Source of the DNA: Mitosporidium daphniae
Taxonomy: Eukaryota; Microsporidia
Length of the DNA stretch: 26,136 nucleotides
Direction: 5' to 3'
Assembly: GCF_000760515.2 (NCBI RefSeq)
Contig: NW_013546151.1
Span: 1-26,136, forward strand
A program made the position numbers and the translations under genes. Position 1 is the stretch's first letter. Each line of letters begins with the position of its first letter. Shown here piece after piece: positions 3,981 through 26,027 of this stretch. Below the pieces are notes generated by a model, which was not told the DNA's origin, made no database searches, and saw nothing but the letters and a program-made list of their open reading frames with translations.

Positions 3981-6443
3981 AACGAAATAACTTTTCCTGC
4001 TGCTGATATTCTTTTATCAGCTTTTTTATGCGCGATTTTGGCAATTCCTCCCCTGCAGCATCATGTGTAGGGATTCCCTATAAATAAATTCAAACGCAGT
4101 TCCAACCTGTTCGTCAAATTTTGAATACAAAGACAGATCCTTGAACATTTCCGAAGGGCAAATTAGTGCTCTGGTATGTCTTTGTGCCTGGCGCTGTTGA
4201 GATATGGCTGCCATTTCTTTCTTTTTGTGCAGCGAGGCCTGCATGCTCTACGTGATTTTAAACTAGTCAAAAAACCTGCTCCTTCTCTTCTTTCATCCTT
4301 TTTAAAGTATCCTGGTCAAGGATCTTTACAAGCGCAGCTAGATGGCCACTTCCTTCAGTGGTCCTATCCTCCAAAATAACGCCAAGATCGGGGCAACCAT
4401 TGTCTCGAAGCTGATCGCACAATTCGAGAAGCATTTTTGGACTGATTTGCTGGCCTTTCTGAAGCGCTTCAAAGGAGAGGGCCCTTAGCTTATCCCTGAA
4501 GGATGAAATCAGGTGTGCAGATTTGGCAAATAAGGAGCTCTAGTTTAAAGTAAGCATTGATGGGAAATGCCATACCTGCGACACGGTGCATTGGTCGTTA
4601 AGGTTCGCAAAACTAACCCCAAAGGCCTTTAAAATCTTCTCAATATAAGCAGAGATTTCACTAAGCAATTGCGAGTAAACGGACGCATCTCCCTTGTTTT
4701 TCAAGTACACTCTGCAATCGCTCATCAGAGCGTTAAGCGATTTCAAGACAGAGGGCGTATCAAACGAGTCGCAAAGGGAAGCATGCACGGCTTCTTGGCA
4801 AGCAAACAGAGACTGCGACAAGCTTTTCTCTTCATCGCCAAAAAACGATACAAATTGGGAGTCTTCTCCAAGGCCTCTAATTACCGCATCAACCTGTGCA
4901 AAAAAATTAACAAATGAAGCTTCAAGAGAAACAGTCTCCAACATCGAGGTCTCTTTGTAATCAAGAGTGGAAGACCATGTATGGGTGAGGAAAAATAATC
5001 TCAATTGACGAGAGGTCCATCTAGACAAAGCTTCCTATGATAAAGTTGATCGGATCCAGGGCACCAACCTTGATGGTGATGAAATTTTTCAAACTCTTGG
5101 ACATTTTTTGCCCCTCAATGTGAAGATGTCCTGTGTGCAGGAAATAATTAACCCATTGCTCACAATCGTACTGTGCCTAATCGTTAATTGCTGTTTTAAC
5201 CCGATGGACTACCTCTGATTGAGCAAGCTCATTGTCATGATGCGGGAAGGCAAGATCAACACCACCGGAATGGATGTCAAGAACACCAGGGATCACATCT
5301 CCGGCCATTGCCGAGCATTCAATATGCCATCCGGGGCGACCGGGCCCCCAGGGAGATGGCCATACAGGCTCTCCTGCTTTCGAATGCTTCCAGAGCGCAA
5401 AATCGGCATTGGAACGCTTGCCGTGAGATAAATTTCCAAGAGCGCCCTCGCCCTCTTCAAGGAGCTTTTGGCGGTCAGCAGACTGTGGGCACAGCTTTGC
5501 ATATGTGTGCTTTGGAGAGTTGTTAAACTTCAAAGTGTCAAAGTAAATTGAACCATCGAGCTGATACCTAAAAATAACAGGGCATTGAAAGGCTACCCGT
5601 AGCCGTTGTTAATAATTTCCTGGATGCAAGAAACTATCTGCGGAATGTATTCGCTTACGCGAGTAAGCACAGCGGGCGGTAGCACGTTCAACGCTTCCAT
5701 ATCATCAAAGAACTCTTTTTCCCAATACTCTGGCAATTCCTTGAATATTTTAGGATCGGAAAGAGTATGTCCATATTGCGAGTCCAAATAGGAGCCCAAA
5801 AGCGCGTGAATAGATTCGGGGATGGTGGAGTGTTCTTTTCCTTTGACAAACGCAAGGGCATCAATAAGAGCCTCAAGAAATGCAGGAGGCTCTTCAGCAG
5901 CATTTTTCGCTCCGTGTGAAAGCAAAAACGAGCGAATGGACTCGGAACAAGTAAACGTCGATAATTTCGAAAGATCCACTTGATCAGAAGATAGAGCAAG
6001 TCGGGAAGAAAGATAATGCGCTACAGCCTTTTCGACTAGCTTTACGATACCACTGGGAGCAAGCTCAGGCTTTTCGGCCCCGGACAGCTGGGATAAAAGT
6101 TGGGATGTAAGAAACTCTTGACGGGCTCGAAGAATGATCTTATCATCGACATCCGTGATGTTCATTACAAACTGGATGTTGTATCCAAAGTAGTCCGTCA
6201 TAATTCGCCGAATGATATCAATGGTCACATAATTTCTGCATGTAAACTAAGCTCAAAATGATACCTTGCATGGCCCATATGCGATGCATCATAGACTGTC
6301 GGTCCGCAAGAGTACCACCTGATCAGCGCGTCGGCACGTTCGGGGATGAATTCGGTCTTTTCTTTGGCAAGCGTGTTCAAAATTTTCAATTTCGGTTGCA
6401 TCGATTTCGAGGTTGTTGGCATCTTCCATTTGCTTGTGGCCAT
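3967..6443 (-). CDS. CARS1: Cysteinyl-tRNA synthetase, 8 exons
   Basis: Class I aminoacyl-tRNA synthetase that charges tRNA-Cys. Exons (minus): 6443-6265, 6235-5597, 5567-5213, 5176-5069, 5034-4576, 4539-4276, 4247-4107, 4077-3967. They sum to 2,256 nt, or 751 aa, the size of the eukaryotic cytosolic enzymes. Introns are 29, 29, 36, 34, 36, 28 and 29 nt. Motifs restored or kept by splicing: [19 protein letters not shown] (HIGH-type signature HMGH, completed across intron 1), [10 protein letters not shown], the zinc-site region GWHIECSAM and [12 protein letters not shown], then KMSKS in exon 4. The fungal/metazoan C-terminal tail follows ([43 protein letters not shown]). The start chosen is the ATG just before the KWKMP segment, but the frame stays open to an ATG at 6704 (separate entry). 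Its 3' end overlaps a tandem repeat. Confidence 0.95.
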
Positions 6444-6704
6444 TTTTGACGTGGTGGAAAGCGCTTTCGACACGGAAATATATTTGAAAAGTTTGGGAAA
6501 CAGCACTAATGTGATGATTAAGCTTACTAATCTGCAGATTAAACTTGCTAATCTGCGGACTAAACTTACTAATCTGCGGCTTAAACTTACCAATGTGCCG
6601 ATTAAACTTACTAATGTGCCGATTAAACTTGCCATTCGGCATTTGATGCCTCTGAATCTAAAGATGCTCGCGGTTTTATTCAATATGATCGACACATAAA
6701 GCAA
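6444..6704 (-). other. Possible alternative N-terminal extension of CysRS
   Basis: The CysRS frame is open 87 codons further upstream, to an ATG at 6704. The extension has no Asp or Glu, is rich in Arg/Lys, Ser/Thr, Leu and Ile, and starts with an amphipathic-looking segment (MLYVSIILNKTASIFRFRG). That composition resembles a mitochondrial presequence. About a third of it is encoded by a 21-nt tandem repeat, giving seven-residue LVSLIGT-type units, and any frame through such a repeat tends to stay open. A dual-localised CysRS made from two starts is therefore plausible but unproven. Confidence 0.4.
6517..6633. repeat. 21-nt tandem repeat, about 5.6 units
   Basis: Five full units and one partial unit of 21 nt (ATTAAACTTACTAATCTGCGG on the plus strand, with point differences). 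They lie at the 5' end of the CysRS gene. The period is a multiple of three, so both strands stay open across it. The three left units carry AATCTGC, the right ones AATGTGCC, suggesting stepwise expansion. Confidence 0.9.
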
Positions 6705-6736
6705 GCAAATTTGCTTTTTATGAACATATGCCGGCG

Positions 6737-7453
6737 TTAGGAACCGAACTTTTCTGCTATCCCCATTTTAAACGGAAGATCTTTAAAAATAAAAGAATCA
6801 AGGGAGCTGCTTGCAAGCGTTCCTGATTCCAGGGCATTTGCAATGACATCGTCTGGGCGTGTGATTCTATCGCACCTTGAATATCCAGGACGTATCAGCA
6901 ACAAGACAATATAAATGTCGTCCGAGTCTTCAATAATATTTACAACAGGCAACGAAATCTTCTTTCCCAATACACTGGAGCAATTTTCCCTGGCAAGTTG
7001 TCGCTCTTTCCATCTCTCTTTGTCTGGGACAGATAGCTTGGCAACGATATAAACAAACATGTTGTTATGTCTCAGCTCTTCCAAAAAATTGAGCAAGTTA
7101 TTAGATGTGTTCATGAGCATAAAAAGACCCGATCCCGGTATCAGTTTGTCGGGAATATAAGCAGGGGCGCTCATCCGCCGAGCCGCTCTATTGTTCTCAA
7201 GAATGTATATGATGTCTTTTGGAGAGTGGCTATTTGCATCCAACAAATCTACATTTGCAGGGAAAGAGCCAAATAAAAATCCGGAAGAAAATCTATAATT
7301 TAGCAAACTTTCAGGAAAATGGTCAAGGGGCTCTTTAAATACCAAACACACACAGTCATGGAACATTACAACAGCACGTCCCGGGGGAAGCAATTTATTA
7401 AAATTTAAGCAAACCCCTTGATTTAACGAAATTGCACTATGGAGATGTTGCAT
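6737..7453 (-). CDS. Unrecognised protein, or 3' exon of the coiled-coil gene upstream
   Basis: An open frame of 238 codons beginning at an ATG at 7453. I recognise no family. The product looks globular and mixed: a hydrophobic stretch near LLPPGRAVVMFHDCVCLVF, then charged helical stretches (ELRHNN, KERWKERQLAREN), and no clear membrane segment or catalytic motif. It lies 68 bp downstream of the end of the coiled-coil frame at 7522 on the same strand, so it may be the same gene. An intron at 7437-7570 (134 nt, GT to TAG) would join the two frames to make 474 aa, but it would be much longer than every other intron here. In-frame TGA codons just before the ATG show that the frame cannot extend upstream unspliced. 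Confidence 0.55.
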   Translation of the reverse strand: MQHLHSAISLNQGVCLNFNKLLPPGRAVVMFHDCVCLVFKEPLDHFPESLLNYRFSSGFLFGSFPANVDLLDANSHSPKDIIYILENNRAARRMSAPAYIPDKLIPGSGLFMLMNTSNNLLNFLEELRHNNMFVYIVAKLSVPDKERWKERQLARENCSSVLGKKISLPVVNIIEDSDDIYIVLLLIRPGYSRCDRITRPDDVIANALESGTLASSSLDSFIFKDLPFKMGIAEKFGS

Positions 7454-7521
7454 TTGGCGAGATCATCATCGGCAACACCAGCAACATCGCGTCCTAGTGA
7501 TGGCGGAGAGCAGAGCAGGTC

Positions 7522-8326
7522 TTATTTAGGAATATCATTTTTCCTGGATAGCCTTCTCGATGTGTGTAACGGCGCTTCACCTCCAGAGGAAGTGAACGTG
7601 CCTATCATTTTGCATATTTGGCCAAGGGATTGTTTATAAGAAAGCCATTCTTGTCTATCGCGTAGCGATGTCTCCAGAAGGGATGACTTTTTCTTTTCTA
7701 ACTCATTAATTTCGGTGAGAATGGCATTTTTTGTGGAAAGAAGTTTGCGTAGTGTAGCTTTGACCCTGTCATAATCATCACCCAGAAGAAGGATGCCGTA
7801 GTCTGGAAAGGCAAGCTCCTGCGGAAGGACATTGACAGGGCAGCCCTCATCTTCATCCACCATAAAGGGCTCATCACTTCTGAAAACAACACAAAGATCA
7901 TTTTCCATCGCATTGTGTGGTTCTTGCTGTGGATTTCCCCCAATGTTTTCGTTGCCATCTTCGGCTCCTTGCCCAGGAGAGATGGTGGGAACCCCTTGCT
8001 CCTCTTGCTGCTCCTGCTTGCCAGTATCGAATGCAATTCTGGAGACGTCGTCAAGAAACTCTGAACCAATCCACATTTTTCTATTGCATAAGATGAGCAT
8101 GGCTGAGATACCTAAACGAATGGAGCTCCTCAAATTGGGATTTTAGCAGCATCAGCTTATACTCTAAATCGGCAATGGTTCTTTTCTTCTCGGCCAATAG
8201 CATTTGAAGCTGTTGCATTTGGCTTCGAAGGTGGCGAAACTGGGCCATCTTTGCATAATGAGACGATGAAAATTCAATCAGCTGGGAATGGCTGAATTTC
8301 GACGGGAAGCACACTGGGAATGACAT
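7522..8326 (-). CDS. Unrecognised coiled-coil protein, 2 exons
   Basis: Exons 8326-8112 and 8080-7522 join across a 31-nt intron (8081-8111, GTATCT to ATAG). They give 257 aa if the TAA at 7522-7524 is the true end. The N-terminal part has a helical, Gln/Leu/Lys-rich stretch (FRHLRSQMQQLQMLLAEKKR). A Gln/Glu/Gly-rich low-complexity linker follows, then a second coiled coil (LRKLLSTKNAILTEINELEK). The domain order resembles small structural subunits of kinetochore, autophagy or tethering complexes, but I cannot assign one. The gene may continue into the frame at 7453-6737. The 76-bp region to its right is shared with eIF3c as a divergent promoter. Confidence 0.6.
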
Positions 8327-11424: not shown

Positions 11425-12888
11425 ATGCCCACTCCACATTTTATCGTTGGCAACGAAAGCTCCGACTTGGATTCCATTGTATCCTCCATTGTGGTGGCCA
11501 AGTATGGTAACGAGCTTTTCGGTCGTGTCGGCGATGTCGACACCAAACATATTGCGGTGCTGGTCACACCTGGAGACATGTTCTTTTTTAAAAAGTATTG
11601 TTCCTATGTTGTTGAAAATATAATGGATGTCGATTTAACGGATACTTCTGAAATCCTTTTCATCGATGATTTCATGGCGACCGCAAAATGCTGCGATTCC
11701 ATTTGTGTTTCCCTCGTGGATGGACCGCAAATTCCATTGTTTCTCCGGCTCTTTAATTACAACTTCCAAGTGTTCAACATTATCGATCACCATTGCTTTG
11801 ATGCGAGTGCACGCTATTTGGGTGAGTGTGTTTTTATCGATCCCTGTGCGTCAAACTGTACCAATGTGTTTCGAGTCATGTGGGAAAAGATTTTCCATAA
11901 AAACGCATCGACTAGCACATTGGAGTCTATCTTTTTTGAGCATCCTTCACATGCAAAGCATCGATTTTGGGAAAATCCACATTGGTTTGCGGAGCTTCTG
12001 GAGGCCAAAAAGGAGCCTGTTGATAGGGTTCTGCTGGCACTTTTGTGCGTGATTGTTGTGGACTCCATTGGAATGGACATGGATGGCTCCGATAAGGTTA
12101 CTATCCACGATGTAAAGGCTTGTCTCTCCATTCTCCAATATCTTCGGATTGGAAAATTTATTTCTTTGTGTCCAGAAGAATTTGAGCAGCCATTACTATT
12201 TGCGTTTGTAAGGGAGAATCATCTGCAGCTCTTCGGCTCCATATTTGCTCATCTCAAGGAATACTCGTCTTTTTCGGCGACTGCGTTGCTTGTATCGCCC
12301 CAAATTGTGCTGCAGCTTGACTACAAAGATTATTTATACGAGTTTCGGGATGCAAAAGAGCGTTTTTTTGCGTACGGCATTTCCAGTATTTCTTGTTCCT
12401 TGTACGAGTTCGTTTCTGATTGTAGCGTTGAAAAAGAAACCGCCTCGTTTGCGGACTTTTCCTCAAAGCTAGTCGCGCACTTTGCGTTGAAAGCAAAATT
12501 AATTCCAAATTACTCGTTTCTCTTTGTCATGACCTGTCAGTCGAGAGAGATCATGACCAATGACAGCTTGATTGCAGATGACGCCAAGGACAGCTTGATT
12601 GCAGATGACGCCAAGAGCAGCTTTATTGGCGCAAGACAATTGTCTTTTTGCTCGCCTGCCGATTATTTTGGAACCTTGGACATTAACGATGCTGCAGAAT
12701 GTGTTTTGGAAAATTTTGAACAATTATTTCCTGGGCTGATTTCGAATTTGGAGTTGAAATTTGTATCTGCTCTTGTGGCAAATTCGTTTGTCACGGTGTC
12801 GTTTATTCAAGGTAAATACAAAATGTCCAGGAAAGCCATACAGCCCGTGATCCACGAATCGATTGGCCATAGAAGTAAACCACATTAG
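11425..12888 (+). CDS. PPX1: Exopolyphosphatase, DHH superfamily (Ppx1/Prune type)
   Basis: Metal-dependent enzyme of the DHH/DHHA2 superfamily that releases phosphate from the end of inorganic polyphosphate; in fungi it is mainly cytosolic. Intronless, 487 aa, longer than yeast Ppx1 (about 397). The DHH motifs are in order: DxDS at residues 14-17 (in VGNESSDLDSIVSS), the aspartates of FIDDF at 81-82, DHH at 121-123 (in FNIIDHHCF), and VVVDSIGMD with Asp at 213. The C-terminal half would hold DHHA2. A 27-nt in-frame duplication (12562-12615) repeats DSLIADDAK and adds part of the extra length. The DHHA2 Arg/His substrate signature is not obvious to me, so Prune-like phosphodiesterase activity cannot be excluded. 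Confidence 0.88.
   Translation: MPTPHFIVGNESSDLDSIVSSIVVAKYGNELFGRVGDVDTKHIAVLVTPGDMFFFKKYCSYVVENIMDVDLTDTSEILFIDDFMATAKCCDSICVSLVDGPQIPLFLRLFNYNFQVFNIIDHHCFDASARYLGECVFIDPCASNCTNVFRVMWEKIFHKNASTSTLESIFFEHPSHAKHRFWENPHWFAELLEAKKEPVDRVLLALLCVIVVDSIGMDMDGSDKVTIHDVKACLSILQYLRIGKFISLCPEEFEQPLLFAFVRENHLQLFGSIFAHLKEYSSFSATALLVSPQIVLQLDYKDYLYEFRDAKERFFAYGISSISCSLYEFVSDCSVEKETASFADFSSKLVAHFALKAKLIPNYSFLFVMTCQSREIMTNDSLIADDAKDSLIADDAKSSFIGARQLSFCSPADYFGTLDINDAAECVLENFEQLFPGLISNLELKFVSALVANSFVTVSFIQGKYKMSRKAIQPVIHESIGHRSKPH
12562..12615 (+). repeat. 27-nt in-frame coding duplication in exopolyphosphatase
   Basis: Two identical 27-nt units encode DSLIADDAK twice in tandem. Identity at the DNA level, not only at the protein level, points to a recent duplication. 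Confidence 0.9.
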
Positions 12889-13752: not shown

Positions 13753-13920
13753 TTTTTATGTAGAATTTTAATGGCACGCCAATAAATGTTTGGACAGGTG
13801 TTTTGCATGGAATTGGCACTTGGATGCATCGATCATGTACATGATGTTGCAACAGATTTCGAAATGGCCACTTTTGTAAATTCCATAGTGGCCCTTGTAA
13901 AATTTTATTTAATGAAGTCA
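13753..13920. other. Intergenic region before Vps23
   Basis: Contains an AATAAA for the bZIP gene around 13781, and AAATTT at 13900-13905 a few bases before the Vps23 start. The Vps23 frame is open upstream to an ATG at 13786, but the translated segment resembles no UEV N-terminus, so I treat it as 5' leader. Confidence 0.5.
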
Positions 13921-14948
13921 ATGGCTAGGGCCAAGTTTGAGCAGACAATTGACGAAAACGTAACCAATGGCCATTCAAAGGGCTCTAAACTATTAGTATG
14001 ACCATCCTGAGCTTGTTAAACGACACATTATCCAGACTTTGAGGAAATTTGCCTCGTTGGCTCCGTACTTGGATGGTTTCCAAACAAATGGCATTATCCC
14101 ACACTTATTTACTATTGTTGCTTTTAGATCCGCATGCTCGTTTAATTGTGGGCACCCTGACGGTGGAGAACAACGAGAACACATATAGCATTCCGGCCTC
14201 CATTTCGCTTTCCTCGACATATCCATTTGGGGGCGATGATGCGGTTCCTGTGGTCCTTAAAGTGATTCCCACCCCTTTGATGAGCATAAACCTGGATTGC
14301 CCCTATATTTTCGAAAATGGAGTGTTCAAATACAGCCACCCATTCCTTTGTGAAGGAGAAGATGGCAATCTGATTATCCAAGTTATTTCAGAGGCTATAG
14401 CTAAATTTGCTGCTATCCCGCCAGTGTTTGCTATTGATGATAGCGGCCAACGTGAGCAAGTCGCTTTTGGAAAAGAAACAGACCTCTCGCCTGTGAGTAT
14501 TGAACATGGTCTCTGTGTGGCTGAAGCAGACGAAAAAGAGGAAAATCCTATGCCGGAGAAAGAGGAAAATCCTATGCCGGAGAAAGAGGAAAATCCTATT
14601 CCGGAGAAAGAGGAAAATCTTTCCTTTGAAGAAATTTCTGGCTCCTCTTTTAATTCAGAACATAGAATCAAAGGTAATTTTTATGCCCAGCTTATGGCTG
14701 AGCCTCCAGACCTCGCTGCCAAAGACATGGACTATAGGAACATTCCAAATTCTTCAATTGATGAAGCCATTAGACTCCTTTCAGATAGAATATTTTCCAG
14801 AGAAGGTTGCATTGATGACCTCGTTAACGCAAGTTTATCTTTTTTGACTCGATCTAGGAGTTACTTGTTTGGACCAAAGCAAAGTTCTACACCACCCTTC
14901 GTTCCACTTGAGATTGGAATTTCTTTACACTCCAGCAATAAAATTTAA
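13921..14948 (+). CDS. VPS23: ESCRT-I subunit Vps23/TSG101 (UEV domain), 3 exons
   Basis: ESCRT-I subunit that binds ubiquitinated cargo at endosomes through a catalytically dead E2 (UEV) domain. Exons 13921-13959, 13997-14075 and 14128-14948 give 312 aa. Introns are 37 nt (13960-13996) and 52 nt (14076-14127, the longest I placed). Splicing assembles a UEV: YDHPELVKRHIIQTLRKF, SLAPYLD, LIVGTL, NTYSIPASI, STYPFGG, KVIPTPLMSI and FKYSHPFL. The order and spacing match TSG101 (the dYxn, GTLP, YnIPv, P-v-PT and HPYL positions), and no active-site Cys is present. A Glu/Pro repeat region replaces the usual proline-rich region. A C-terminal helical segment (SIDEAIRLLSDRI to FLTRSR) could be a divergent steadiness box. 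It is shorter than most family members (about 390). ATG 13912 is an alternative start. Its stop lies 28 bp from the convergent Utp22 stop. Confidence 0.82.
14532..14619 (+). repeat. 24-nt in-frame tandem repeat in Vps23
   Basis: Almost four units of a 24-nt repeat encode the octapeptide EKEENPMP (one copy has Ile for Met, the last diverges). They lie between the UEV domain and the C-terminal helices, where relatives have a proline-rich linker. Confidence 0.88.
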
Positions 14949-14976: not shown

Positions 14977-17001
14977 CTATTTAAAGTAAGCCCCAAAAAG
15001 GGACACCAACTTTTGCAGTATTTCAGAGCGGATGAAATCCGCATCGACCGGCCCTTTGACCGATATTCCTATGGGGTGTGTGATGAGGCTACCCCCATGG
15101 AGCGTTTCCGAATCGTAAATGTCAATGGAAGAGGGGACAAAAAGTGTTAGGGGATAACAGGAAAACTCCGTCTAGGGAACAGTAAATTTAAACGAGGATA
15201 CCTTTATCAAGTTGGAAACAATGGAGAGCGGATTAAACCCCGGGAGCATTAAGGATGATAGAATATCCTCTTGGGTTTGTTTAATCCCCTCGATGTCACA
15301 AACAATTGACTCCCTAATGTCAGATAAGAATTTCCCCGATTCGAAGGAAATAGAAAAATCAAAAAAATCGTTGACCTTGAACATTTCCAAAAGCAGTGAC
15401 TCGGAAGGGAGGGGCCTTTTTGGGGGGGATGTAAATAGCAGGGATGCAACTGAGAGAGATTTTAAGGCCAATTGAGAAATAATTGAAAAGTCGGAGATGG
15501 AAACGCCAATTTTTTCCAAAATAGGCGCATTCTCCTGCTGACCTAGAAAGTGGATTGAATTGATGAAGGCTGAAGTTGGTGAGGTAGGAAATGTCCCCAT
15601 ACTCTGAGATGTTGTTTTATTTTTGCTTGATGGATCAAAAATACTGATTTGGTGAGTCTCCTTTGCCGATTGGGCACTGTCATCCTCATTTCGAGCTGGC
15701 ACCATATTAGATTCGATGACAATTTTTTCGACAGCTTCGAATGGAAAAAAATCGCTCAGCCTTTTATTGGAAATCCAAAGTAGCAAAAGCTTTATCCCAT
15801 CAAGAATAGGCTTTGGATGCATTGCATAAATAGAGTTTTTCACAAACGAATCATGAGCTAGTGCTTCCGTGAAAATTAGAAAACTAAACTCGTTGCACTT
15901 TGACATCCAATTTGCATTTGTTTTGAAGGGGAAATGATCGCTCAATTCTCTCCACAGAGAAAGATGAATTACATCCTTCTGCAATGTTTCCTCTTTTGGA
16001 AGCAGACGGATAGATTTGTTTTCTAAAGAAAGCCATGTTGCCGGTTGGTGAAAGGCGAAACCAAGGTCTAGGTAGCACCGGAAGACAAATCCGCTGCAAA
16101 ATACATCCATAAAAGAGGGTCCGGCACCGTTTGTTGAAATTGACGGAACCAAATCTGGCGTTGTGCGTTGGATCCCAGCACCAAGATTGCCCAAAAACGC
16201 GGTAGCCATGGCATGGAACGCCTTTGGCTCCGTTGGCCACCTGTTCGATGTTTCTAGTATTAAAAGCACGGTGTGCACAGGAATGAAAGCCTGCTTGACA
16301 TTTATATTTTCTTTACACAAAGACAAATACGCACTAGGGCTTGGGAGGTGTGGAAAATCGGTGTAAATCGAGCCCCTCATGGACGAGGAGATTGGAAGAA
16401 TCGACTGGATAGCAAGCGAGCTTTCCAGGCCCATAATAGATGTTTTTAGCTTTGAAAATGAGCCGTTCAAAAGCGAGGATCCATCCGCTTTATCTAATGG
16501 CTGCGAAAGGACATCACTTAAAGGCAGCAATTCCAGTCCACAAATCTGTATTTTTCCCGGATCCAGCTTTAAATGCACCTCCATCATATGTTGAACCATG
16601 GCCTTCAAAATTTTGCTTCTATCGGTTTTGATTTCAGGTGCATCCCATACAACACATTCGATGATGTTGGTATTTTGGAACTTCCTCAGTTGGCTTTTAG
16701 AAGGCCCCCAAAATTTCCTAAAAGACTCTGCTGCATTTGGATTGTCTGAAGGACTGGGCCCCTTATCAACAAGCCTAAATATCTGGTCCGGCTCGAAGAA
16801 AAGACCAAAAGCAAGTTTTTTGGAGACCTTGGCATTTTCCAATTCACAAATGCCTCTTACCCGGCTGGATAGCCCATATTGAAGCACATTTAAAATGTAT
16901 TGCGAAAGCGATGTTTCAGTGTCCAAAACGGAGTTCGCGTATGAAATGCTGTCCTTTGAGATGTCAAAAACTACCACTGCATCGTAAGCCAGGTTTTTCA
17001 T
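14977..17001 (-). CDS. UTP22: Utp22/NOL6 (Nrap family), C-terminal part only, 2 exons
   Basis: Utp22 is a scaffold subunit of the 90S pre-ribosome (SSU processome, UTP-C) in the nucleolus. Exons 17001-15202 and 15171-14977 join across a 30-nt intron (15172-15201, GTATCC to CTAG) that carries an in-frame stop. The product is 664 aa. Family landmarks: FRLVDKGPS, FRKFWGPSKSQLRKF and IIECVVW near the start, then FxxCYLDLGFAF, ILETSNRWPTEPKA and FHAMATAFLG in the middle. The protein starts where known family members (about 1,150-1,240 aa) are already some 40% through, so the N-terminal half is absent. An in-frame TGA sits shortly upstream of the ATG, and the myosin light chain gene ends 52 bp upstream, leaving no room for more exons. 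It is either a truncated lineage-specific form or the missing part lies elsewhere. Confidence 0.82.
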
Positions 17002-17053: not shown

Positions 17054-17651
17054 TTAAACCCTAATTTGGGAATTGCCAATAACCTTGTCGATGATTTCTA
17101 GCAAGCAAGAAGGTTGGAGATGCTTTTACCTTCATAGGAGACGGCCATATCTACATTTGAATATCCCAAAAGTCTATAAAGGGAATCCACATCTTCAGAC
17201 GCCATCTTCTCACCGACCGTGGTGAGGATATGCTTAAGATCAGAAAGCTTAACCAGCCCGCTCCCTACGGCAATTGGTTCGGCGAGCAATTACCTTCTTT
17301 ATCCAAAATCTTAAAGCAATTGATAAGATCGGAGCGGTCGGTGACTACATTGACGGAGGCGCGGTCCATGCCTGAGACGAAGGAAAGGAAACTCTCCTCA
17401 TCAACCCATCCAGACCCTAATCTGGGAAGGGAACAGGTACATACCTAACGGATCGATCATTTTTTCAGTCTCCTTGATTTGGGCTTCAGAAGGAAAATTT
17501 CCCATTGCTCGTAAACAATCGCCCACTTTTGCCGTTGGGATTTTAAGGCCTTCGCCGCCGCCTTGGATGCTGAATATGGAAAACACCTCTTTAGCATCTA
17601 TACATGAGAGGAGAAGAACACCATAAAGGTACCATAATAGTTCGGCGCCAT
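17054..17651 (-). CDS. MLC1: Myosin essential light chain (Mlc1/Cdc4-like), 5 exons
   Basis: EF-hand light chain that binds IQ motifs of myosin heavy chains in cytokinesis and transport. Exons (minus) 17651-17633, 17597-17445, 17416-17294, 17264-17130 and 17097-17054 total 474 nt, 157 aa; yeast Mlc1 has 149. Introns are 35, 28, 29 and 32 nt. Splicing gives the essential-light-chain order: EVFSIFSIQGGGEGLKIPTA, KVGDCLRAMGNFPSEAQI, VDEESFLSFVSGM, CFKILDKEGSGLVKLSDLKH, ILTTVGEKMASEDVD and VSYEEIIDKVIG. The EF-hand loops lack the full set of acidic calcium ligands, as usual for essential light chains. It could be a divergent calmodulin-like protein, but ILTTVGEKM and VGDCLRAMG favour Mlc1. It diverges from the Pus1 gene across a 95-bp promoter region, and AATAAA lies 24 bp past the stop on its strand. 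Confidence 0.9.
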
Positions 17652-17746: not shown

Positions 17747-19251
17747 ATGAGCGAGACTTTGGATCGCACCGAAATGATGGCACCACCAGTTAAATTTCCA
17801 AAAAAAAAGGTCGCATTGGTTCTAGCCTATTTAGGCACAAACTATCAGGGAATGCAAATGTATGTTGGGTGGCCTTTTATTTTAGAAATCCAAATGCCAA
17901 AACTATAGAGTCCGCCCTATTCAAGAGCTTGGTTGATTCGGAACTGGTTTCTGAGCTCAACTCCACGGACCAAAAGAAGGTTTGCTTGGGTTTCTTTCCG
18001 CTAGATTGGATTGATGAGAGCCTGTCGCACAGACAAGGGTGTCCATGCAGCCATGCAAGTGGTGTCTTTGAAGGTTATTTTTAAAGACCCCATTGCGAGC
18101 ATCATGAGCTCAATCAATTCACATTTGCCCAAGGATATTAGGGTCTGTGGTATCCATCCGGTGAGCCAGACTTTCGACTCAAAGTTGCATTGTGATTCGA
18201 GATTTTACGAATATTTGCTGCCGACGTTTATGTTTAAATGCGACTCTTCCTTTGATTTGTCCTTTTTGGAGAACATGGCCGCAAAAAGGGACACTTTAGA
18301 TGGCAAAAACGAGGCTGCAAGCGACGGTTCTGAATGTGAAGACAATGTTGCTGGAAATGAAGATCAAGCCTCGATGCAAAAACACAAGCTCGCCGCCGAT
18401 TTCTATTCCAATAATTTTAAGCCTACTTTGGCCGACATTGAGCAGCTTTCGGCGTTTCGCCTATCTTCAAAGGAGAAAGACCGACTTGACGCCTTGCTAA
18501 AATGCTTTGAGGGCTCCCACTTTTTCCACAACTACACGATCAAAAAGTCGGCCGTAGATCCCAGTGCATGCAGGAAAATTATCTCCTTTTCGGTGGGTAC
18601 TTTTTTGCTAACTTTCAGAGCTCGGATCCATTCGTTCTAAATAACAACTGCACCGATCGTGCCGACTTGACTTTGGCGTCCTCGGAGTGGATCAAATTGA
18701 CCATCCACGGACAGTCTTTCATGCTGAACCAAATTAGAAAGCTCATTGGTATCCTTTGCCTCTTATCCCTAGGAATGGTGATCATGATTATGCGTCTCGA
18801 TGTCCAGGATTATTCGATGGTCATTTCCAGGAGTCTTTCGAAATCCGAAAAAATGAATGTCCCAAAAGCCCCTGGCGTGGGTCTCTTGTTAGCTCAAGTA
18901 TGAGTGTGCTTTTTACTTTAGGCGTGTTTTTCGCAATACAACAAACGTATTTCAGAGATAAATCCGCTATCCTATGATACCTATGCGCTCGAGATTGATT
19001 CCTTCAAGGAAAAGGAAATTTATCCTGCCATTGCCAGTGAAGAGTTTTCCAAAAACATATTCATGAATTGGTGGTGTGCTATCTCCCTGCATGCATATGA
19101 TTTCCAGTATGTCCTACAACAGTGGACACCACCTGATTCTGAAGTATCGAAAAAAAAAATTAAAAAGGGCAAATACAGTGCCGATCAAGCATCTCAGAGC
19201 GAGCCCCCCAAGGTCGAGCAAAAGAATCCGGATCCCAGCATATCTCAATAA
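17747..19251 (+). CDS. PUS1: tRNA pseudouridine synthase, Pus1 type (TruA family), 6 exons
   Basis: Converts uridine to pseudouridine in tRNAs (and some snRNAs/mRNAs) in the nucleus; Pus1 orthologues also serve mitochondria. Exons 17747-17859, 17886-17979, 18005-18592, 18619-18748, 18773-18897 and 18922-19251 total 1,380 nt, 459 aa. The five introns are 26, 25, 26, 24 and 24 nt, the shortest in the window. Restored motifs: VALVLAYLGTNYQGMQ, CRTDKGVHAAMQVVS with the catalytic Asp, HLPKDIRV, RFYEYLLPTF, FEGSHFFHNYT, GQSFMLNQIRKLIGMVIMIM, VPKAPGVGLLL and YNKR. The Pus1-type C-terminal extension ends in a Lys-rich tail. An Asp/Glu-rich insertion follows RFYEYLLP. ATG 17747 or 17774 could be used. 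It converges on the HMG gene with 32 bp between stops. Confidence 0.93.
18749..18772 (+). other. 24-nt intron without in-frame stop (PUS1 intron 4)
   Basis: GTATCC to CTAG, 24 nt. It has no stop codon in the reading frame and is a multiple of three, so retention would insert ILCLLSLG after KLIG. The family motif IRK(M/L)(I/V)GMV is continuous only if it is removed, which is the argument for splicing. Confidence 0.7.
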
Positions 19252-19283: not shown

Positions 19284-20323
19284 CTACTCCTTCGTATCTG
19301 ATTTGCTTTTCTTGGATTTTTTGTTGGCCATCAGAGTATGCATGATATCCCATTCTTCTTGGGAGAGCACATTTGCATCCGCAGGCTTTGGAGCTTCCTT
19401 TGGCACATTTTCACGGTCAGATGGAGTATCGCTTTCTCCAGAATACTTGTTTTTGGAGCTGGTTTTGCTTCTTTTGGATTTTGAAACAGTTAGAGCCTCA
19501 GCATCCGCATGTTCGATAGATGACAATTGAAGTATTTCCGTCGATGGTGCTGAAATTTCTTCTTGATGCGACTGTGATTTATCCTTCTTTTTGGACGATT
19601 TCTTTTTGGCCGGGAATTCGTTTTCCTGAACTGCGGATGTAGCCTCCTCTATGACGGGCTCCATTTCATGAAGTTCTGATTCCTTAATCTCCAAAACCAG
19701 GTCCTTTTCCTCCTCGCAGGCAGACGAGGCTGCCAGGATTTCTTCTGCGAGCGGTGTGGGGAGGAACTTTTTTTTCCTTCTCTTTTGATCTCCATTGTAC
19801 GCTTCGGGGAATTTAGCCTGGTTAATTTCCATGGCCTTCAAAGAATAGCCCTAGGGATTCTCGTATGGAAAATGCAAACCCTTTTTTTTTCATCCGATTC
19901 TTGCTTCCACAATTCAATGGCCTGGTTATAGATTTCTTTGGAACTTTGCCCTTCATGAGCTTTATCGAGCCTAGGCTTTACCTCTGAATAATAAATCGTA
20001 AATCCATTGACACGGCCCACCCGTTCTCTTGTAGAAGAAACCTCTGCATATTGTAAAGATAACCGATTACCTTTTATGGCTTTCTCGGCGCCGTTGGAGA
20101 GGGGGGTTTGGGATACACACTCAACATTTGAACATAGGATGTTGAAAATATTTTCAAAAGATTTTGAAATGCTTAGAAATTCATTCTTCAGTGCATGTAC
20201 GGCCTCTTGTGTAAAAAATACATGGTTGCTGGAAGTGCCGGCACCCGCACCAGCTGTATTTTCCGCATCACTGCTTGACAACGCCGTTTGACCGGCTGAT
20301 GGTTTTCTGGATGCTTTAGTCAT
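19284..20323 (-). CDS. HMG-box-like protein, 2 exons
   Basis: Exons 20323-19880 and 19850-19284 join across a 29-nt intron (19851-19879, GTTTGC to CTAG), giving 336 aa. Residues about 103-170 look like a divergent HMG box: GRVNGFTIYYSEVKPRL matches the N-x-F-x-x-(F/Y)-x-x-x-x-(R/K)-P pattern. ELWKQESDEKKRGYSLKA matches the W-x-x-L-x-x-x-E-K-x-x-Y core, and it is completed only after splicing. The N-terminus is Ser/Ala/Gly-rich with a helix (ALKNEFLSISKSFENIF). The C-terminal half is low complexity, with alternating acidic and Lys/Ser-rich blocks ending in KKSKKSKSDTKE, typical of nuclear chromatin or nucleolar proteins. No orthologue is assigned. AAAATTTAATTAATT lies just upstream of the start. 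Confidence 0.65.
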
Positions 20324-20381: not shown

Positions 20382-21024
20382 TCAAGTTGATTTGTGCATA
20401 TTGAATCTCTTGGCGTAAAGTGAAGAGGTGCCGGCAAAGATTTCTGCTATTTCGTCATATAGGCCTCTCTCGAGATTTCTCACCGTATTGTACTCTCTCT
20501 GTGTTGCGGCTTCAACCAGCCATCGAATAGCAATGCCGTTCTGTCTATGGGGAGTCAATACTCTTGGCAGAGTTTGTTTGCGCCCCATCATGGATTTGTA
20601 CTCCAATAGTGGCTTGACGCTATCAATGGCCAATTGGATTGGATTATCAATTTGATAGTCCAGCTTTAGCCTGGCATTCACTCTTGCAAGAATGGCATTC
20701 TGGCTTACTCCACCCTTGATCAACGACCCAAGAAAGTTGGGACACAAGCTGGTGGGTTTTGTAGCCACATGTCCCGTTTCTAATGCCGGGTTATAAAGCT
20801 TCCATATGGCGCGTACCTTTTTCGTTGCTAGCTATGTCCAAGTTTGGATCCGCTCTGGACAAACTTTCTGTGATCAGTATGCTTGCAGCCATTTCGTCTG
20901 CCACAAAATTCCTTTCTTGTTTGATAATTTCTCGCATCGGAATGTCCTTGGCTGCATAGAACCTCAAGCCAGCTCGAATATGACGGCTTCCCGCTATGCG
21001 GGGAAACGCCCTACCTGCCACCAT
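20382..21024 (-). CDS. RSM7: Mitochondrial small-subunit ribosomal protein uS7m, 2 exons
   Basis: Bacterial-type uS7, which nucleates the 3' head domain of the small rRNA, here predicted for the mitoribosome. Exons 21024-20817 and 20779-20382 join across a 37-nt intron (20780-20816), giving 201 aa. The N-terminus is Arg/Ala-rich and lacks acidic residues for about 28 codons (MVAGRAFPRIAGSRHIRAGL), a good mitochondrial presequence. The C-terminal half has the uS7 pattern: NPIQLAIDSVKPLLEY, QTLPRVLTPHRQNGIAIRWL, VEAATQRE and SSLYAKRFNMHK. The eukaryotic cytosolic uS7 has different signatures. The upstream frame has only a TTG further out, so I chose the ATG at 21024. A 21-nt GT...AG segment at 20994-21014 could be a second intron, but it is not needed. 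Confidence 0.85.
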
Positions 21025-21033
21025 TTGATTGTT

Positions 21034-21104
21034 AATTAAAAGGACGAATTTCAAGTGCTAATTAAAAGAACGAATTTCAAGTGCTAATTAAAAGGACGAA
21101 TTTT
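21034..21104. repeat. 26-nt tandem repeat, about 2.7 units
   Basis: Units at 21034-21059, 21060-21085 and 21086-21104 (partial) share AATTAAAAGGACGAATTTCA. They sit 10 bp upstream of the uS7m start, in the divergent spacer with the small membrane protein gene, so they may carry repeated promoter elements. Confidence 0.88.
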
Positions 21105-21205: not shown

Positions 21206-21674
21206 ATGATCAACACTCGAAACCAATATTTTTTACTGAACTATATGACTGCCAGTTGTGGATTTTCAATTCCAAATATTTGTAAATTAACGGAAAATAT
21301 GAACTGTACATTAATTATGCTTGTGGCCATGGGCATGCTAACGGCGTGTATTTTGGGAGCCATGTATTATAACCAATCCAGGAAGCTTAAAAAAGGTACC
21401 GATGCGTTCGCTAAATTATGCAGATGATACTGTCGCCAAAAGACTTCGAAGTTCGAGGAAAGCGGCAAAAGAGAAAGTAAGTTTTGAATCCGACAACGAA
21501 GCATCTGATAAGTTGCCGAAAAAGAGCAAGCCAAAAAAGGCAACTACCGAATTGACTCGAAGCCAATCGCGAAGAAAATCTGCCGAAATAGCCAACCAAG
21601 CCATTGTGGAGGGTGCCGGTGGCATATCGACGCCACGCAAGGCCAAAGCCAAATCGGTCTCCAGTGCAAAGTAA
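21206..21674 (+). CDS. Small single-pass membrane protein with basic tail, 2 exons
   Basis: Exons 21206-21395 and 21424-21674 join across a 28-nt intron (21396-21423, GTACCG to GCAG), giving 146 aa. If translation starts at the internal ATG at 21299, 115 aa result, beginning almost directly with the membrane segment. A hydrophobic helix, CTLIMLVAMGMLTACILGAMYY (in parts Met-rich), lies at about residues 34-55. It is followed by NQSRKLKK and a highly basic, Ser/Lys/Ala-rich hydrophilic tail (SRSQ-like RSQSRRKS, TPRKAKAKS). By the positive-inside rule the tail should be cytosolic or nucleoplasmic. I recognise no family. Without splicing the frame stops right after the membrane helix, so the intron decides whether the tail is made. 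Confidence 0.55.
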
Positions 21675-21726
21675 TTGTAATTGTAAGTAAATCGAACAAA
21701 GCCACCTATGCCCAATAGTGCCCCAA

Positions 21727-22167
21727 TTACATTGAAATGTTGTATTCCTCACCACTGCTACGATCATCCGACTCGATGTCTTCATTCAGGTAGGAGAGAT
21801 CAGAGGAGCAATCTGGATCTACCGGTACATACGTTTGATGCAGCAGCCTGAACAAAGTCTGTTCCAGGACAACCATGTCGATTTTGTATCGCTGCGAAGG
21901 ATCCTCGGCGTAAATGTACTTCCAACCGAGCAGCGAATCACATCCTTTGCAAAAAACGTCGCAAACGATATGGATTCCTGTAAGTAGCTTTCTGCTCTCA
22001 GCTGTGCCGAAATGCACGTTCAATACTTTTCGAAATAAAAAGGCCTGACCAAGGGTGCCACTAAAAGAGCGAGAGACGACGTCTGTTGGCGTGGACAGGT
22101 GTGTCGAGCATTCGACACACTGAAACACATATCTTGAATCGATGTACTTTCTTAGCGGAATGCCCAT
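21727..22167 (-). CDS. YPEL: Yippee-like zinc-binding protein (Moh1/YPEL)
   Basis: A 146-aa intronless member of the Yippee family (part of the Yippee/Mis18/cereblon fold). The domain is read directly: YVFQCVECSTHLSTPTDVVS, then SFSGTLGQAFLFRKVLNVHF, TGIHIVCDVFCKGCDSLLGW, and KYIYAEDPSQRYKIDMVVLE. Two CxxC pairs (CVEC and CKGC) about 55 residues apart form the zinc site. The start chosen is ATG 22167 (MGIPLRKYI), matching the family's short N-terminus; the frame further out has only a non-ATG. The C-terminus is an acidic extension (DLSYLNEDIESDDRSSGEE). Yeast Moh1 is linked to stationary-phase survival and GID/CTLH complexes, but its role here is unknown. It converges with the membrane protein gene at 52 bp. 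Confidence 0.92.
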   Translation of the reverse strand: MGIPLRKYIDSRYVFQCVECSTHLSTPTDVVSRSFSGTLGQAFLFRKVLNVHFGTAESRKLLTGIHIVCDVFCKGCDSLLGWKYIYAEDPSQRYKIDMVVLEQTLFRLLHQTYVPVDPDCSSDLSYLNEDIESDDRSSGEEYNISM

Positions 22168-22245
22168 TAAAAACACCGAAAGCCGAAGTGTAAAAAGAAT
22201 GCATCATGCACTGAAATTAAAGTTTGCTAATGCAATGGAAATAGT

Positions 22246-23573
22246 TTATCGTGAAAATGCTTTTCTTTTCCTACTTGGAATGGGCGTGTAATCAGCTCTG
22301 TGTAAGACAGCAGCAAGGTGTTCATCATATGCCTTTTCAGGATCAACATTTCGGTCGTCCAGCATCGACATCAAATGCTGGTGATAAAAGGAGCGAGACA
22401 GAGAAAATCTACTCCACGAGCCAGAAAGGCCCTGGTAAAGCGATCTGAGTGCTTTTTGCTTTAAATCTTTGTAGCATTCAGATGAAAATTCAAGGCCGTC
22501 AAAGGTTGCGTCCCACAGCACCAAGGCGTCCTCGCTTGCCATGTGGTATGTTGGCTTTTCTGTGCTCTCAAACATATACTGTATTACCTAAAGGTCAACA
22601 GCATAGCGTCGTACCGAGGGCTCTTCATGCCCAGTTCCGATCAAAAACAGGATTCCCATCATACAGCGGACTTGATGATACAAAAAGCCCTTTCCCGTAA
22701 CAATGAATACGTACTGCTTAAGAGACGAAATCGAACTAGCTTTGTCATCAAAAGCTGGCTTACTCTTGGAAGCACTCGACCGGCTCTATTTTGGACGCTA
22801 TTATGGTTCTTTCAAAGAGCACGTTATCTTTTGATTTGTCGACTTTGCAAAAGTTTTTAAAATTGTGAATGCCCACATAAAGTGCGGCGGCTTCATTCAT
22901 TTTCTAATTTGCATTACATACGATGCCACGTTACCTCGATGTCAAGATCTTCGGCCAGGAAATAATAATGGTACGTTCTGGAGGTGCAATTAAATCTAGC
23001 AATTTAGACACCCAAACCACACCGTGCGTCAAAGTCGGCTCCCACATCTTTCCATCCCAATATCCGGATGTCGCTTGGAAGAACCGAATTTAAGATCGAC
23101 ATGTAGGGCAGCTCCCTTTCCCTTTCTATGGTGGAAAATTGCACGCCAGACCCGCAATCAGAGTCGGCCTTTTCGACGGATCGAATGTTTAGCGATATAA
23201 TTTGTTTAAACGCCGAAACACCCTTATCGGTTCGCCCGCATCTGGAATAGTTGCACGAATCCACACTTTCAATTAGCTTGGTCTTGATCAACGAGCCAAA
23301 TAAATGATCCTATTTTGAAAAGGGCCTATCATGTACCTCAATCGTATTTACATTCGTATCTCTCTGCGTGGCCAATCCCTGAAATGAATGGCCAATGTAG
23401 CAAAGGTGCATTGCAACTTTCCGTCGTTTAAACGAAGAAAAGTCGAAAGCAGAGCGTTTGGTTTTATCGTGATAGCCGTTGCCCCTTTTTGATGGCAGTT
23501 TAGCCATCTTGGCTTGAAGTTCTCTAATGAGAACAATCAAGCACTCTTTGGATAAATTTTGTAAATTGGACAT
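22246..23573 (-). CDS. PUS3: tRNA pseudouridine synthase Pus3/Deg1 (TruA family), 6 exons
   Basis: Makes pseudouridine 38/39 in the anticodon arm of many tRNAs. Exons (minus) 23573-23337, 23309-23023, 22995-22935, 22903-22764, 22735-22615 and 22587-22246 total 1,188 nt, 395 aa; yeast Deg1 has 442. Introns are 27 (23310-23336), 27 (22996-23022), 31 (22904-22934), 28 (22736-22763) and 27 nt (22588-22614). Splicing gives Pus3 hallmarks: LCYIGHSFQGLATQ, NYSRCGRTDKGVSAF (catalytic Asp), LNSVLPSDIRILGW, FDARFNCTSRTYHYYF (completed across intron 2), NEAAALYVGIHNFKNFCKVD, GFLYHQVRCMMGILFLIG and KPTYHMASEDALVLW. An N-terminal Leu-rich helix (LSKECLIVLIRELQAKMAKL) matches the family. A second TruA gene, PUS1, lies 3 kb away. 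AAATTTAAA is three bases upstream of the ATG. Confidence 0.94.
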
Positions 23574-23609
23574 GAAATTTAAAAAAGTTTCCGTTTTTAT
23601 GATTTGCTT

Positions 23610-26027
23610 TTATTCGATGCAGACTGCAAAGACCCCGTGAGACAGGGATTCTGCTGTCAGATACGAACCAAAGTGCTGTTTTAGCCAAAGCATCATGCTC
23701 AGCGTTGGAGATGTTATAGCGACAGACCCTTCCATGTGAGAGTATTCCGATACGAAATGCTCGACAAAGTTGATTACCGAGGGATCCTCCTTGAAGGATA
23801 GCAATTTTTCCTTTAAAATATCCCAAGCCCAGGGCTCACATGGGTTTTGTGCAAGAACATCGTTTTCAAGCCAAATGAAGATCGCCTCAAGACCTAATAC
23901 CTTTCCCTCAAGCAAATGATCAATGACCACTTGAATATATTGGGGAGAAAGTTTCCAGAAAAACAAAAGATGTCTCAAAAATTCAATCTGGCTCTGCATG
24001 TCTAATGGAGAAATACCAAGAAGTTCAAGATATCTATTGGTTATTCCATCATAAGTACCTGTCAATGGCATTGATTGTATGCGAAAAGGATTTGGATCCA
24101 TATAGGAGAACAGACTGGATGATGACTTTTCTTGGATTCGATATGGAGAACACATTGGCGGAAATGATGCCTTCAATCTCTGACACCGGGGTCTTTGATT
24201 TTATGCATTCCCCTAGTTTCCTGGAAAGAGCCAGCTCTTCCGGGCTTGCCGTGGTCGATGCCTCGGAAAATTCAAAACATGGCTCTGGCGATGGCTGTAA
24301 ATAATTAACGAAAAATTCTGGAATGTTTGCTCTGATTTGTTCGTAGTATGATAGTCTATACTGTCATGCGGCTGAAAGGATACCTTATCATTTTGGAAAG
24401 CAGAGTCTGTAAAAAGAGGGCTTGAGACCCCACTTGTGGCTCGAGATTGAACCCTGTACTCATATTCTCCGAGAGGGTTTCCCTAACGTTGAGACAGTTT
24501 CTGAAATTACCATTGCATCCATTGGCTCCATTTATATTCAAACTGGCTAAAATGGTGCGCTAGCCAGCCACTTAGAATAACCAGTTGCGAGAATAAAAGT
24601 TCGTCAAGAGAGGTAAATAATCCAGTCACAATGGCACCAAGATATTCGCTGGCAACGTCACATATTGTCAGAATGTCTTTGATAAGCATCGTATAATAAA
24701 CGGTTGGAAATGGAGGGGGTCGTGGGGCCGCTAGCATTTCCGAAAGGATGCACTACACGATAAAATGTCACCACAAATACACTAAGAGCAATTCTAGGGA
24801 TGTCCGCAGATGGAAATGTGTGTTGAACATCGACGATGATAAAATCGGCACATTTGTGGTAGTTTTCATCAAACGCATTGATGATGTGAGTGACGATATC
24901 GGAAAGCAGCCAATGCTCCATGCAATCTCTTTTTATCGTAAACTTGGGGCTGCCATCATTTGTTCCATCAATAGTTTCAGACTCAGCATGCGGTTTACTG
25001 GCGTAGTCTTCGTCCACAGCCTTATGGGACATGTCTTGGTCGGTGATTCGAAACACTCTCCGAACATGAGGGAAGGTTTGTGTCTCTTTAGGCTCGTACA
25101 AAGCCCCAGCGTCAAGATTATGTGGCAAAGTGTGAGCATTTACAGAATCAGCGGGAGATGAAAATTCTTCTAAAATCACTTGATCAATCAGGTTATTCTG
25201 CAAGTAAGTAAAGTATGCAATACCGTCCAGTTGTCCATGTTTGTAAAGAACGAGTACAATTCCAAAAGAATGTCAAAAGAAAAAAACCGGGGAACACCGC
25301 TACCTGATTGTTCAAGACTTGGGGATGCTGATTTGATTTCCAACATTATGTTGCCAATGCGAACAAGAAGCGTTCGAAAGACGCCCTCATTTTGTCTCAG
25401 CAAAACCGATCCGTTCCAAAGGAAGGATGAAAGAATCGAATACAAAAAGTAAAATTTTGCTTTTTCCCTGGACGGGTCATTAGAACATTGTTCAATGAAA
25501 TCAATCAACGGTTCAATTGAATGCAAAAAGGATAGATCATTGACAACATTGACGGTGACAAGATCGGCTAAAAATCGAAGAGAAAGAGTAAATTTCGACC
25601 AGCTTCCATTGGAAATAAATTTGTCCATTGAGTCAAGCAGCAGCGGGATAAACTTTTCGCTCACCATTGCCGGATCTTGTAGATTGAGAAGACCAACGAT
25701 GGAGGAGTAGATCCTGGGCTTCCATGCCATTTCAGAAACACATTCAATGATGGTGGCAAGCAAAGCATCAAAATATGGCTTAGAAGATTCGGACAGCAAA
25801 ACCTTTGCCAAATTACGAATATTATCAGATAAAGAAGAGGAGCTCTTTTGTCCGACAAGGAATATTAAATGATGCAGAGTATCCTCAGCAGACTGGGTTT
25901 CTCCGCCCTTGTTTCCATGAAATCGCTTGGAGTTTGAGCGTCGCTCCGAAGGGCCGTGCTTATGCTCTAAAATATAGGGAGTTATTGTACCGTATTCACT
26001 GTCATCAAAGCTTCGCTTGGAATTCAT
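23610..26027 (-). CDS. CBC1: Nuclear cap-binding complex large subunit CBP80/Cbc1, 6 exons
   Basis: Large subunit of the nuclear cap-binding complex, which with CBP20 binds the m7G cap and promotes splicing and export. Exons (minus) 26027-25224, 25197-24759, 24730-24511, 24482-24384, 24355-24059 and 24033-23610 total 2,283 nt, 760 aa; human has 790. Introns are 26, 28, 28, 28 and 25 nt (25198-25223, 24731-24758, 24483-24510, 24356-24383, 24034-24058). The first MIF4G domain is clear: LVGQKSSSSLSDNIRNLAKV, YSSIVGLLN and LSLRFLADLVTVNVV. MIF4G-2 has YPAPRPPPFPTVYYTMLIKD and LAHHFSQFEYKWSQW, then LSYYEQIRANIPEFF. MIF4G-3 has DHLLEGKVLGLEAIFIWLEN and WAWDILKEKL. The N-terminus has Lys/Arg clusters (KRSF, SERRSNSKRF) fitting a bipartite nuclear localisation signal. 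The stop overlaps an AATAAA (23609-23614). Confidence 0.92.

Follow-up and report, generated by a model that had tools for sequence, protein, structure and literature searches.

Short, probably U2-type spliceosomal introns of 24–37 nucleotides in the microsporidian Mitosporidium daphniae

Mitosporidium daphniae is a parasite of water fleas that NCBI taxonomy places in Microsporidia and that a review, in the passage concerned, names as one of the two earliest-diverging sequenced members of the group. We analyzed a 26,136-nucleotide (nt) stretch of its DNA (contig NW_013546151.1, positions 1 to 26,136, GC about 44%; hereafter the window). The rebuilt gene models hold 33 introns in 11 genes between positions 4078 and 25223. 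These segments are very probably real introns, and we consider it likely that they are U2-type spliceosomal introns shrunk to 24–37 nt (median 28). Their removal would proceed by intron definition, the RNA core being canonical in other respects. Beyond the window, short introns are common across the M. daphniae genome.

The rebuild recovered the number of introns, the number of genes and the span reported in a first-pass annotation of the window. Every entry of the earlier length table was matched (two introns of 24 nt, two of 25, three of 26, three of 27, seven of 28, five of 29, one of 30, two of 31, one each of 32, 34 and 35, two of 36, two of 37 and one of 52; median 28), and a recount gave the same 29 TAG ends among 33, the other four being CAG. 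All 11 coding sequences (CDS) are multiples of three, as had been claimed, with zero internal stops. The donor tally of 24 GTA, 6 GTT and 3 GTG becomes 24, 7 and 2 on recounting the earlier set. The statement that all introns start with GT and measure 24–52 nt stands for 32 of the 33 and for the 24-nt minimum, but the 52-nt intron at 14076-14127 is probably a 37-nt GC-AG intron at 14091-14127. The UEV profile scores 38.4 bits with the GC-AG version and 28.3 bits with the GT-AG version, which takes out five residues more; the TSG101 match, computed for the GC-AG model alone, reaches up to 34.6 bits, with a 3-residue gap six residues past the junction. Read in this way, the UEV intron brings the range to 24–37 nt (median 28, mean 29.5), and the claim of a universal GT start probably falls. 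The corrected set comprises 32 GT-AG introns and one GC-AG intron, whose removal restores the conserved coding frame. Counted over the 17 gene models of the window, intron density is 1.42 per kb CDS.

Most of the introns were found by gene modeling. Twenty-three of the 33 came from a gene model with retrained coding statistics and a looser intron penalty, and training on window introns came only after this recovery. Intron 15172-15201 appeared at a still looser setting, and the remaining nine were located via reading frames and family motifs. The first self-trained gene model had yielded 7 introns within the window. To calibrate such counts, we used decoys that mirror GT-AG introns, with complementary letters (CA-TC) and mirrored weights. 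Weak coding statistics, used with neither a splice model nor a preferred length, gave few introns and hardly exceeded the decoys, with 21 versus 12–18 at any length and 8 versus 1–2 at 24–40 nt.

Homology across the splice junctions provides the most direct support for the joins. We counted a junction as supported where the alignment with a homologue ran without a gap within 3 residues, using the top chain from each search where the comparison was with solved structures. Residue by residue, 21 of the 33 junctions are gap-free in this sense: six in the cysteinyl-tRNA synthetase (CysRS), five in the Pus1-type synthase, four in the Pus3-type synthase, three in CBP80 and three in the calmodulin-like protein. 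The CysRS model equals an NCBI M. daphniae protein, P0136, over all 737 residues; P0136 adds 14 N-terminal residues (start 6443) and agrees with all seven joins, and is itself probably a gene prediction. Thirteen other CysRS homologues, picked from 120 listed matches, align without a gap at six of the seven junctions. The Pus1-type protein matches structure chain 7r9f_A (234.9 bits) across all five of its junctions, the Pus3-type protein matches 9enb_A (253.8 bits) across all but 22736, and CBP80 matches 1n52_A (131.5 bits) across all but 25198 and 24483. The calmodulin match (75.2 bits) covers three of four junctions, the first (17598) lying at its edge. A 22nd junction, in the HMG-box-like protein, is supported only in that the matched spans are of equal length, and the match itself falls just short of the cut-off (24.4 bits against 25.4; residues 105-157 on positions 5-57 of the HMG_box profile, junction at residue 148). 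Four junctions adjoin a small gap (4540, 22736, 25198 and 24483), two lie at a match edge (17598 and 13960), one is that of the GC-AG intron, and four were placed by frame, outside homologous cover (8081, 15172, 20828 and 21396).

There is a somewhat better than even chance that most of the introns are real but that a small number of boundaries are misplaced or introns overlooked, the cases in point being the 52/37-nt intron, 15172-15201, the loop junctions and stop-free candidates whose length is a multiple of three. Counting the chosen pair, GT-AG pairs of 15–80 nt that restore the frame number 4 per site (median), and 11 at 21396-21423. The two UEV versions are 10 bits apart, and the four junctions placed by frame include 20828, which precedes a uS7 match that begins no earlier than residue 93. 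The weakest intron is 15172-15201: the match of the Nrap/Utp22-like protein extends no further than residue 309, and a stop at 15172, where the gene may end, is the alternative reading. The looser model also added seven segments that were dropped (13733-13763, 25967-25990, 23607-23633, 20044-20070, 16023-16061, 15570-15602 and 7293-7349). Two of these, proposed by that model only, are GT-AG, stop-free and a multiple of three on the minus strand (25967-25990, 24 nt; 20044-20070, 27 nt); they could be real introns, so that 33 may be an undercount. Against widespread misplacement stand the 21 junctions that are gap-free residue by residue.

The first-pass annotation had proposed a survey of intron lengths elsewhere in the genome, and the same size band appears there. 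The genome set searched comprised 147 contigs (4.66 Mb) and is smaller than the published M. daphniae draft (612 scaffolds, 5.64 Mb, 43% GC). In 230 kb outside the window, analyzed with a flat length prior of 12–200 nt and splice weights taken from the window, a gain of at least 3 yielded 52 real segments versus 0 decoys at 23–40 nt and 23 versus 37 at other lengths. At a gain of at least 5, the counts were 26 versus 0 and 13 versus 16, respectively. Within the 26 kb of the window, one and the same model returned 27 segments versus 12 decoys, and for the 230 kb outside the counts were 186 versus 70; the window thus does not look exceptional in its introns. For sequence statistics we assembled a second outside set of 63 introns (22–40 nt, gain of at least 5) with a splice model limited to +3 and −3, leaving positions −4 to −10 and the exon side unmodelled. 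Together with the 33 window introns, these give the 96 introns used in the branch tests.

Donor information in the window is concentrated at exon position −1 (0.99 bits) and at +3 (0.94 bits), in addition to +1 and +2. Positions +4 to +6, already described as variable, carry 0.17, 0.14 and 0.03 bits. G occupies −1 in 27 of 33 window introns and A occupies +3 in 25 of 33; outside, with the exon unmodelled, G is found at −1 in 35 of 63.

Near the 3′ end, a weak but positioned signal emerges. The triplet T-N-A (TNA) with its A at −7 to −9 occurs at 22 sites in the 33 window introns versus 7.8 in shuffles, and at 40 sites in the 63 outside introns versus 17.6. At least one such triplet is present in 56 of the 96 introns (21 of the 33 in the window, 35 of the 63 outside), versus 654 of 2936 GT..TAG pseudo-introns of 22–40 nt (22%); the comparison is conservative because the pseudo-introns still included the introns of the window. 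Longer words at the same positions are also enriched, with YTTAY at 9 versus 1.1 expected and YTRAY at 3 versus 1.1 in the window, and YTRAY at 12 versus 2.6 and YTTAY at 6 versus 3.1 outside. The pattern takes the form yUnAy, as pairing with U2 would lead one to expect. The first-pass annotation had seen no shared branch-point motif; this no longer holds, though 40 of the 96 introns lack the triplet and the canonical branch words CTAAC and CTRAY are not enriched over the whole window introns (1 of 33 each). With the range widened to −6 to −10, the A is nt 17–30 of the intron in the window (24 of 33) and nt 15–29 outside (40 of 63). The dinucleotide AG is depleted at −10 to −4 in the outside set (4 versus 11.3, P 0.004). 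No clear polypyrimidine tract is seen in either set, the T fraction at −15 to −4 being 0.40 in the window and 0.45 outside versus 0.32 and 0.45 upstream.

The snRNAs of a U2-type spliceosome and Prp8 are encoded in the genome. The first-pass annotation had suggested inspecting the small nuclear RNA (snRNA) genes, and each of the five has one Rfam match over the cut-off, to be read as a lower bound (U1 83.6, U2 137.2, U4 97, U5 89.8 and U6 90.8 bits). The U1 5′ end reads GUACUUACCUG, U2 carries GUGUAGUAUCUGUUCUU and U6 carries ACAGAGA. Prp8, 100% identical to DI09_1p450 of M. daphniae, is one unbroken frame of 2419 residues. The snRNAs, Prp8 and the homology across junctions together argue for the earlier view that these segments are spliceosomal introns and that the nuclear genome is of fungal type. 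We rejected self-splicing introns as an alternative; the window contains no Rfam match over gathering scores.

For the protein factors of branch and 3′-site recognition, which the first-pass annotation had also singled out, no clear SF1 or U2AF65 candidate emerged among the matches examined. The zf-U1 profile gave two matches over the cut-off (best 67.9 bits), although one control genome, E. coli, matched too. SF1-HH gave no match in a six-frame genome search, in which genes cut by tiny introns could escape, and none in the control genomes either. There are two KHDC4/BBP KH matches, neither taken for SF1; by its motifs, we take the KHDC4/BBP-family KH protein to be KHDC4. U2AF_lg gave 30 matches, all under the cut-off, in a six-frame search that genes split by introns could likewise escape. 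Those examined, on contigs C120, C136, C22 and C78, include Y14 and an SF-CC1/RBM39-type protein, and others among them are presumably CstF64-like and nucleolin-like. The SF-CC1 (RBM39-type) factor matches over its own cut-off. Neither the SF1-HH nor the U2AF65 result shows absence of the gene. Y14/RBM8A of the exon junction complex (locus L034, minus strand) is kept in this genome, whose introns measure about 28 nt.

The positions and lengths of the introns, the statistics of their splice sites and branch regions, the snRNA genes and Prp8 are read directly from the sequence, and they suggest how such introns might be recognized. U1 would hold the donor mainly via −2 to +3 (A-G/G-U-A, the slash marking the exon-intron boundary), and we propose that a grip centered there needs little intron sequence. 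U2 would pair with the degenerate T-N-A, whose A lies 7–9 nt ahead of the 3′ end, a placement that would leave 15–30 nt between donor and branch. The 3′ site would be the next TAG after T-N-A, without a clear polypyrimidine tract. We infer the proposed pairings of U1 and U2, the role of the enriched A as branch point and assembly by intron definition.

Several observations weigh against this interpretation. At the donor, AG precedes only 17 of the 33 window introns, and agreement with the U1 ideal is weaker at −2 and −1 outside (0.52 and 0.56) than in the window (0.64 and 0.82). At the branch region, TNA at −7 to −9 is absent from 12 of the 33 introns in the window and from 28 of the 63 outside; the two sets disagree on its middle base, which is T in the window and A or G outside; YTRAY is not enriched over the whole window introns (5 of 33 versus 6.9 expected); and AG depletion at −10 to −4 does not reach significance among the window introns (4 versus 7.7, P 0.098). 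Regarding the size band, 5 segments versus 1 decoy were found at 71–100 nt at a gain of at least 5, so a few longer introns may exist. The model limited to +3 and −3 gave 116 versus 28 (gain of at least 3) and 63 versus 17 (gain of at least 5) at 22–40 nt, with 17 versus 38 and 10 versus 19 at other lengths within 18–60 nt, and the model with the window length prior gave 93 versus 39, 186 versus 70, 240 versus 123 and 288 versus 245 as the penalty fell. Decoys are not rare under these weaker models, and about a quarter of the 63 outside introns may therefore be false. Furthermore, the nine introns located by frames and motifs were found with the earlier length table already known, which makes the match to it less than fully independent.

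We regard it as unlikely that the A at −7 to −9 reflects 3′ splice-site context instead of the branch point, given that the pattern has the form expected for U2 pairing, recurs in two sets and is less frequent in GT..TAG pseudo-introns. The introns without TNA at these positions fit this alternative, under which branch choice would be unspecified as in Paramecium, the chlorarachniophyte nucleomorph and dicyemids, short-intron lineages without a branch signature in the passages of PMC2483917. Far less probable still, and in our view negligible, is that errors of assembly or sequencing, and not introns, break the frame at these segments: such errors would not start GT or GC, end TAG or CAG, stay within 24–37 nt and carry a positional A, nor would their size band reappear elsewhere, where 23–40 nt holds 0 decoys at a gain of at least 3, even though DNA sequence is the sole basis of the intron calls. 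Identity with P0136 alone would not exclude errors confined to one assembly. This protein, on a longer contig of 875,858 bp, appears to derive from an assembly of 2025 whose gene annotation came from BRAKER/ProtHint and funannotate; the main text on that assembly does not contain the term 'RNA-seq', so P0136 is probably a prediction too.

The genes of the window are collected in Table 1. Six of the 17 gene models have no intron, among them a 1273-residue open reading frame (ORF) that we take to be midasin-like. Proteins P0002 and P0003 are 67% and 45% identical to the eIF3c of the window (8403-11147), and protein P0017 shows 89% identity to Prp8; these identities suggest that M. daphniae has relatives not yet described. 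Tandem repeats (21, 22 and 26 nt) lie at 6505-6630, 3914-3988 and 21033-21103, mostly in intergenic DNA.

Table 1 Gene models of the window and their introns
Gene	Position	Strand	Introns	Remarks
Cysteinyl-tRNA synthetase (CysRS)	3967..6443	−	6236-6264, 5568-5596, 5177-5212, 5035-5068, 4540-4575, 4248-4275, 4078-4106	7 introns
Pus1-type tRNA pseudouridine synthase	17747..19251	+	17860-17885, 17980-18004, 18593-18618, 18749-18772, 18898-18921	5 introns
tRNA pseudouridine(38/39) synthase, Pus3 type	22246..23573	−	23310-23336, 22996-23022, 22904-22934, 22736-22763, 22588-22614	5 introns
Nuclear cap-binding protein CBP80/NCBP1	23610..26027	−	25198-25223, 24753-24780, 24483-24510, 24356-24383, 24034-24058	5 introns; possible sixth 25967-25990 uncounted
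Calmodulin-like EF-hand protein	17054..17651	−	17598-17632, 17417-17444, 17265-17293, 17098-17129	4 introns
TSG101/Vps23-type UEV protein	13921..14948	+	13960-13996 (37 nt, GT-AG), 14091-14127 (probably; 37 nt, GC-AG)	2 introns; earlier version of second 14076-14127 (52 nt, GT-AG)
HMG-box-like protein	19284..20323	−	19851-19879	1 intron; possible second 20044-20070 uncounted
Ribosomal protein uS7	20382..21024	−	20828-20864	1 intron; mitochondrial by best chain names
Nrap/Utp22-like protein	14977..17001	−	15172-15201	1 doubtful intron
Gene without Pfam match over cut-off	7522..8326	−	8081-8111	1 intron; frame joined by gene model alone
Gene without Pfam match	21206..21674	+	21396-21423	1 intron; frame alone
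ORF of 1273 residues, open at contig end	3-3824		intronless	no Pfam match
eIF3c	8403-11150		intronless	
DHH-like protein	11425-12888		intronless	match below cut-off
bZIP protein	13051-13752		intronless	
Unmatched ORF	6737-7366	−	intronless	
Yippee/Mis18 protein	21727-22167	−	intronless	

The worth of these introns lies in their position: they are tiny yet frequent, they belong to an early branch of the mostly intron-poor Microsporidia, and they keep a near-fixed distance between the branch-like signal and the 3′ end. We met no description of short introns in M. daphniae in the titles, abstract openings and passages of the literature covered, which did not include the genome paper of Haag et al. 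2014 or Whelan et al. 2019. Published densities are 2.53 introns per kb CDS in Rozella and, averaged over 15 Microsporidia species, 0.01. The density in the window sits between these values with length already near the floor, a combination that makes the order in which introns first shrink and are later lost testable. On a joint reading that we hold only tentatively, and that is more doubtful than not, M. daphniae would be a microsporidian caught between shrinkage and loss. Its introns would first have reached a 24–37-nt floor while still frequent, with branch-to-AG distances of 7–9 nt, U1 on −2 to +3 and possibly no working SF1/U2AF65 pair; strict motifs and mass loss would have followed later in canonical Microsporidia. 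If this were true, the spliceosome would read a donor and a short branch-AG unit instead of a polypyrimidine tract. A near-fixed branch-to-AG distance alongside ordinary U1, U2 and Prp8 offers a natural test of the minimum intron for a canonical core. In practical terms, annotation of such genomes fails with a minimum intron setting above 24 nt.

Comparison with other eukaryotes places these introns in a class already known. Published passages on Encephalitozoon cuniculi describe introns of 22–76 nt (37 in the combined set) with a relatively strict 5′ site and a branch motif, CTAAYTT occurring in 9 of 13 introns. M. daphniae shares with it the phylum Microsporidia, a comparable minimum length and GT-AG ends. 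In contrast to the few introns, strict 5′ site and branch motif of E. cuniculi, M. daphniae has many introns, a loose +4 to +6 and a branch reduced to T-N-A; neither the strict donor nor a CTAAY-type branch is found, as the information at +4 to +6 and the single CTAAC among 33 introns indicate. Elsewhere, according to the passages available, introns measure about 25 nt in Paramecium and Nyctotherus, 18–21 nt in nucleomorphs, 16–17 nt in mikrocytids and 15–16 nt in Stentor coeruleus, where the branch A usually falls on nt 10 and is followed by a 5-nt tail. The earlier remark that the M. daphniae introns are close to the lower size limit is thus right in that they are short and near the floor, but E. 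cuniculi reaches 22 nt and other eukaryotes 15–21 nt. Stentor and mikrocytid introns, though similarly tiny, are much shorter and nearly uniform, whereas those of M. daphniae vary over 24–37 nt with a near-fixed distance only on the 3′ side. PMC2483917, in the passages concerned, sets intron-poor lineages with strict motifs against lineages with denser, short introns, weak motifs and no branch signature, the latter being reported for Paramecium, the B. natans nucleomorph and dicyemids. M. daphniae resembles Nyctotherus in its short introns, and Paramecium, the nucleomorph and dicyemids in having short, relatively dense introns with a 5′ site that is largely GT(A). Its size is no record, and M. 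daphniae is a useful new example, not a new mechanism; unlike Paramecium, the B. natans nucleomorph and dicyemids as described there, it keeps a weak branch signal at a near-fixed distance, as judged by a position test and not by the consensus test of PMC2483917.

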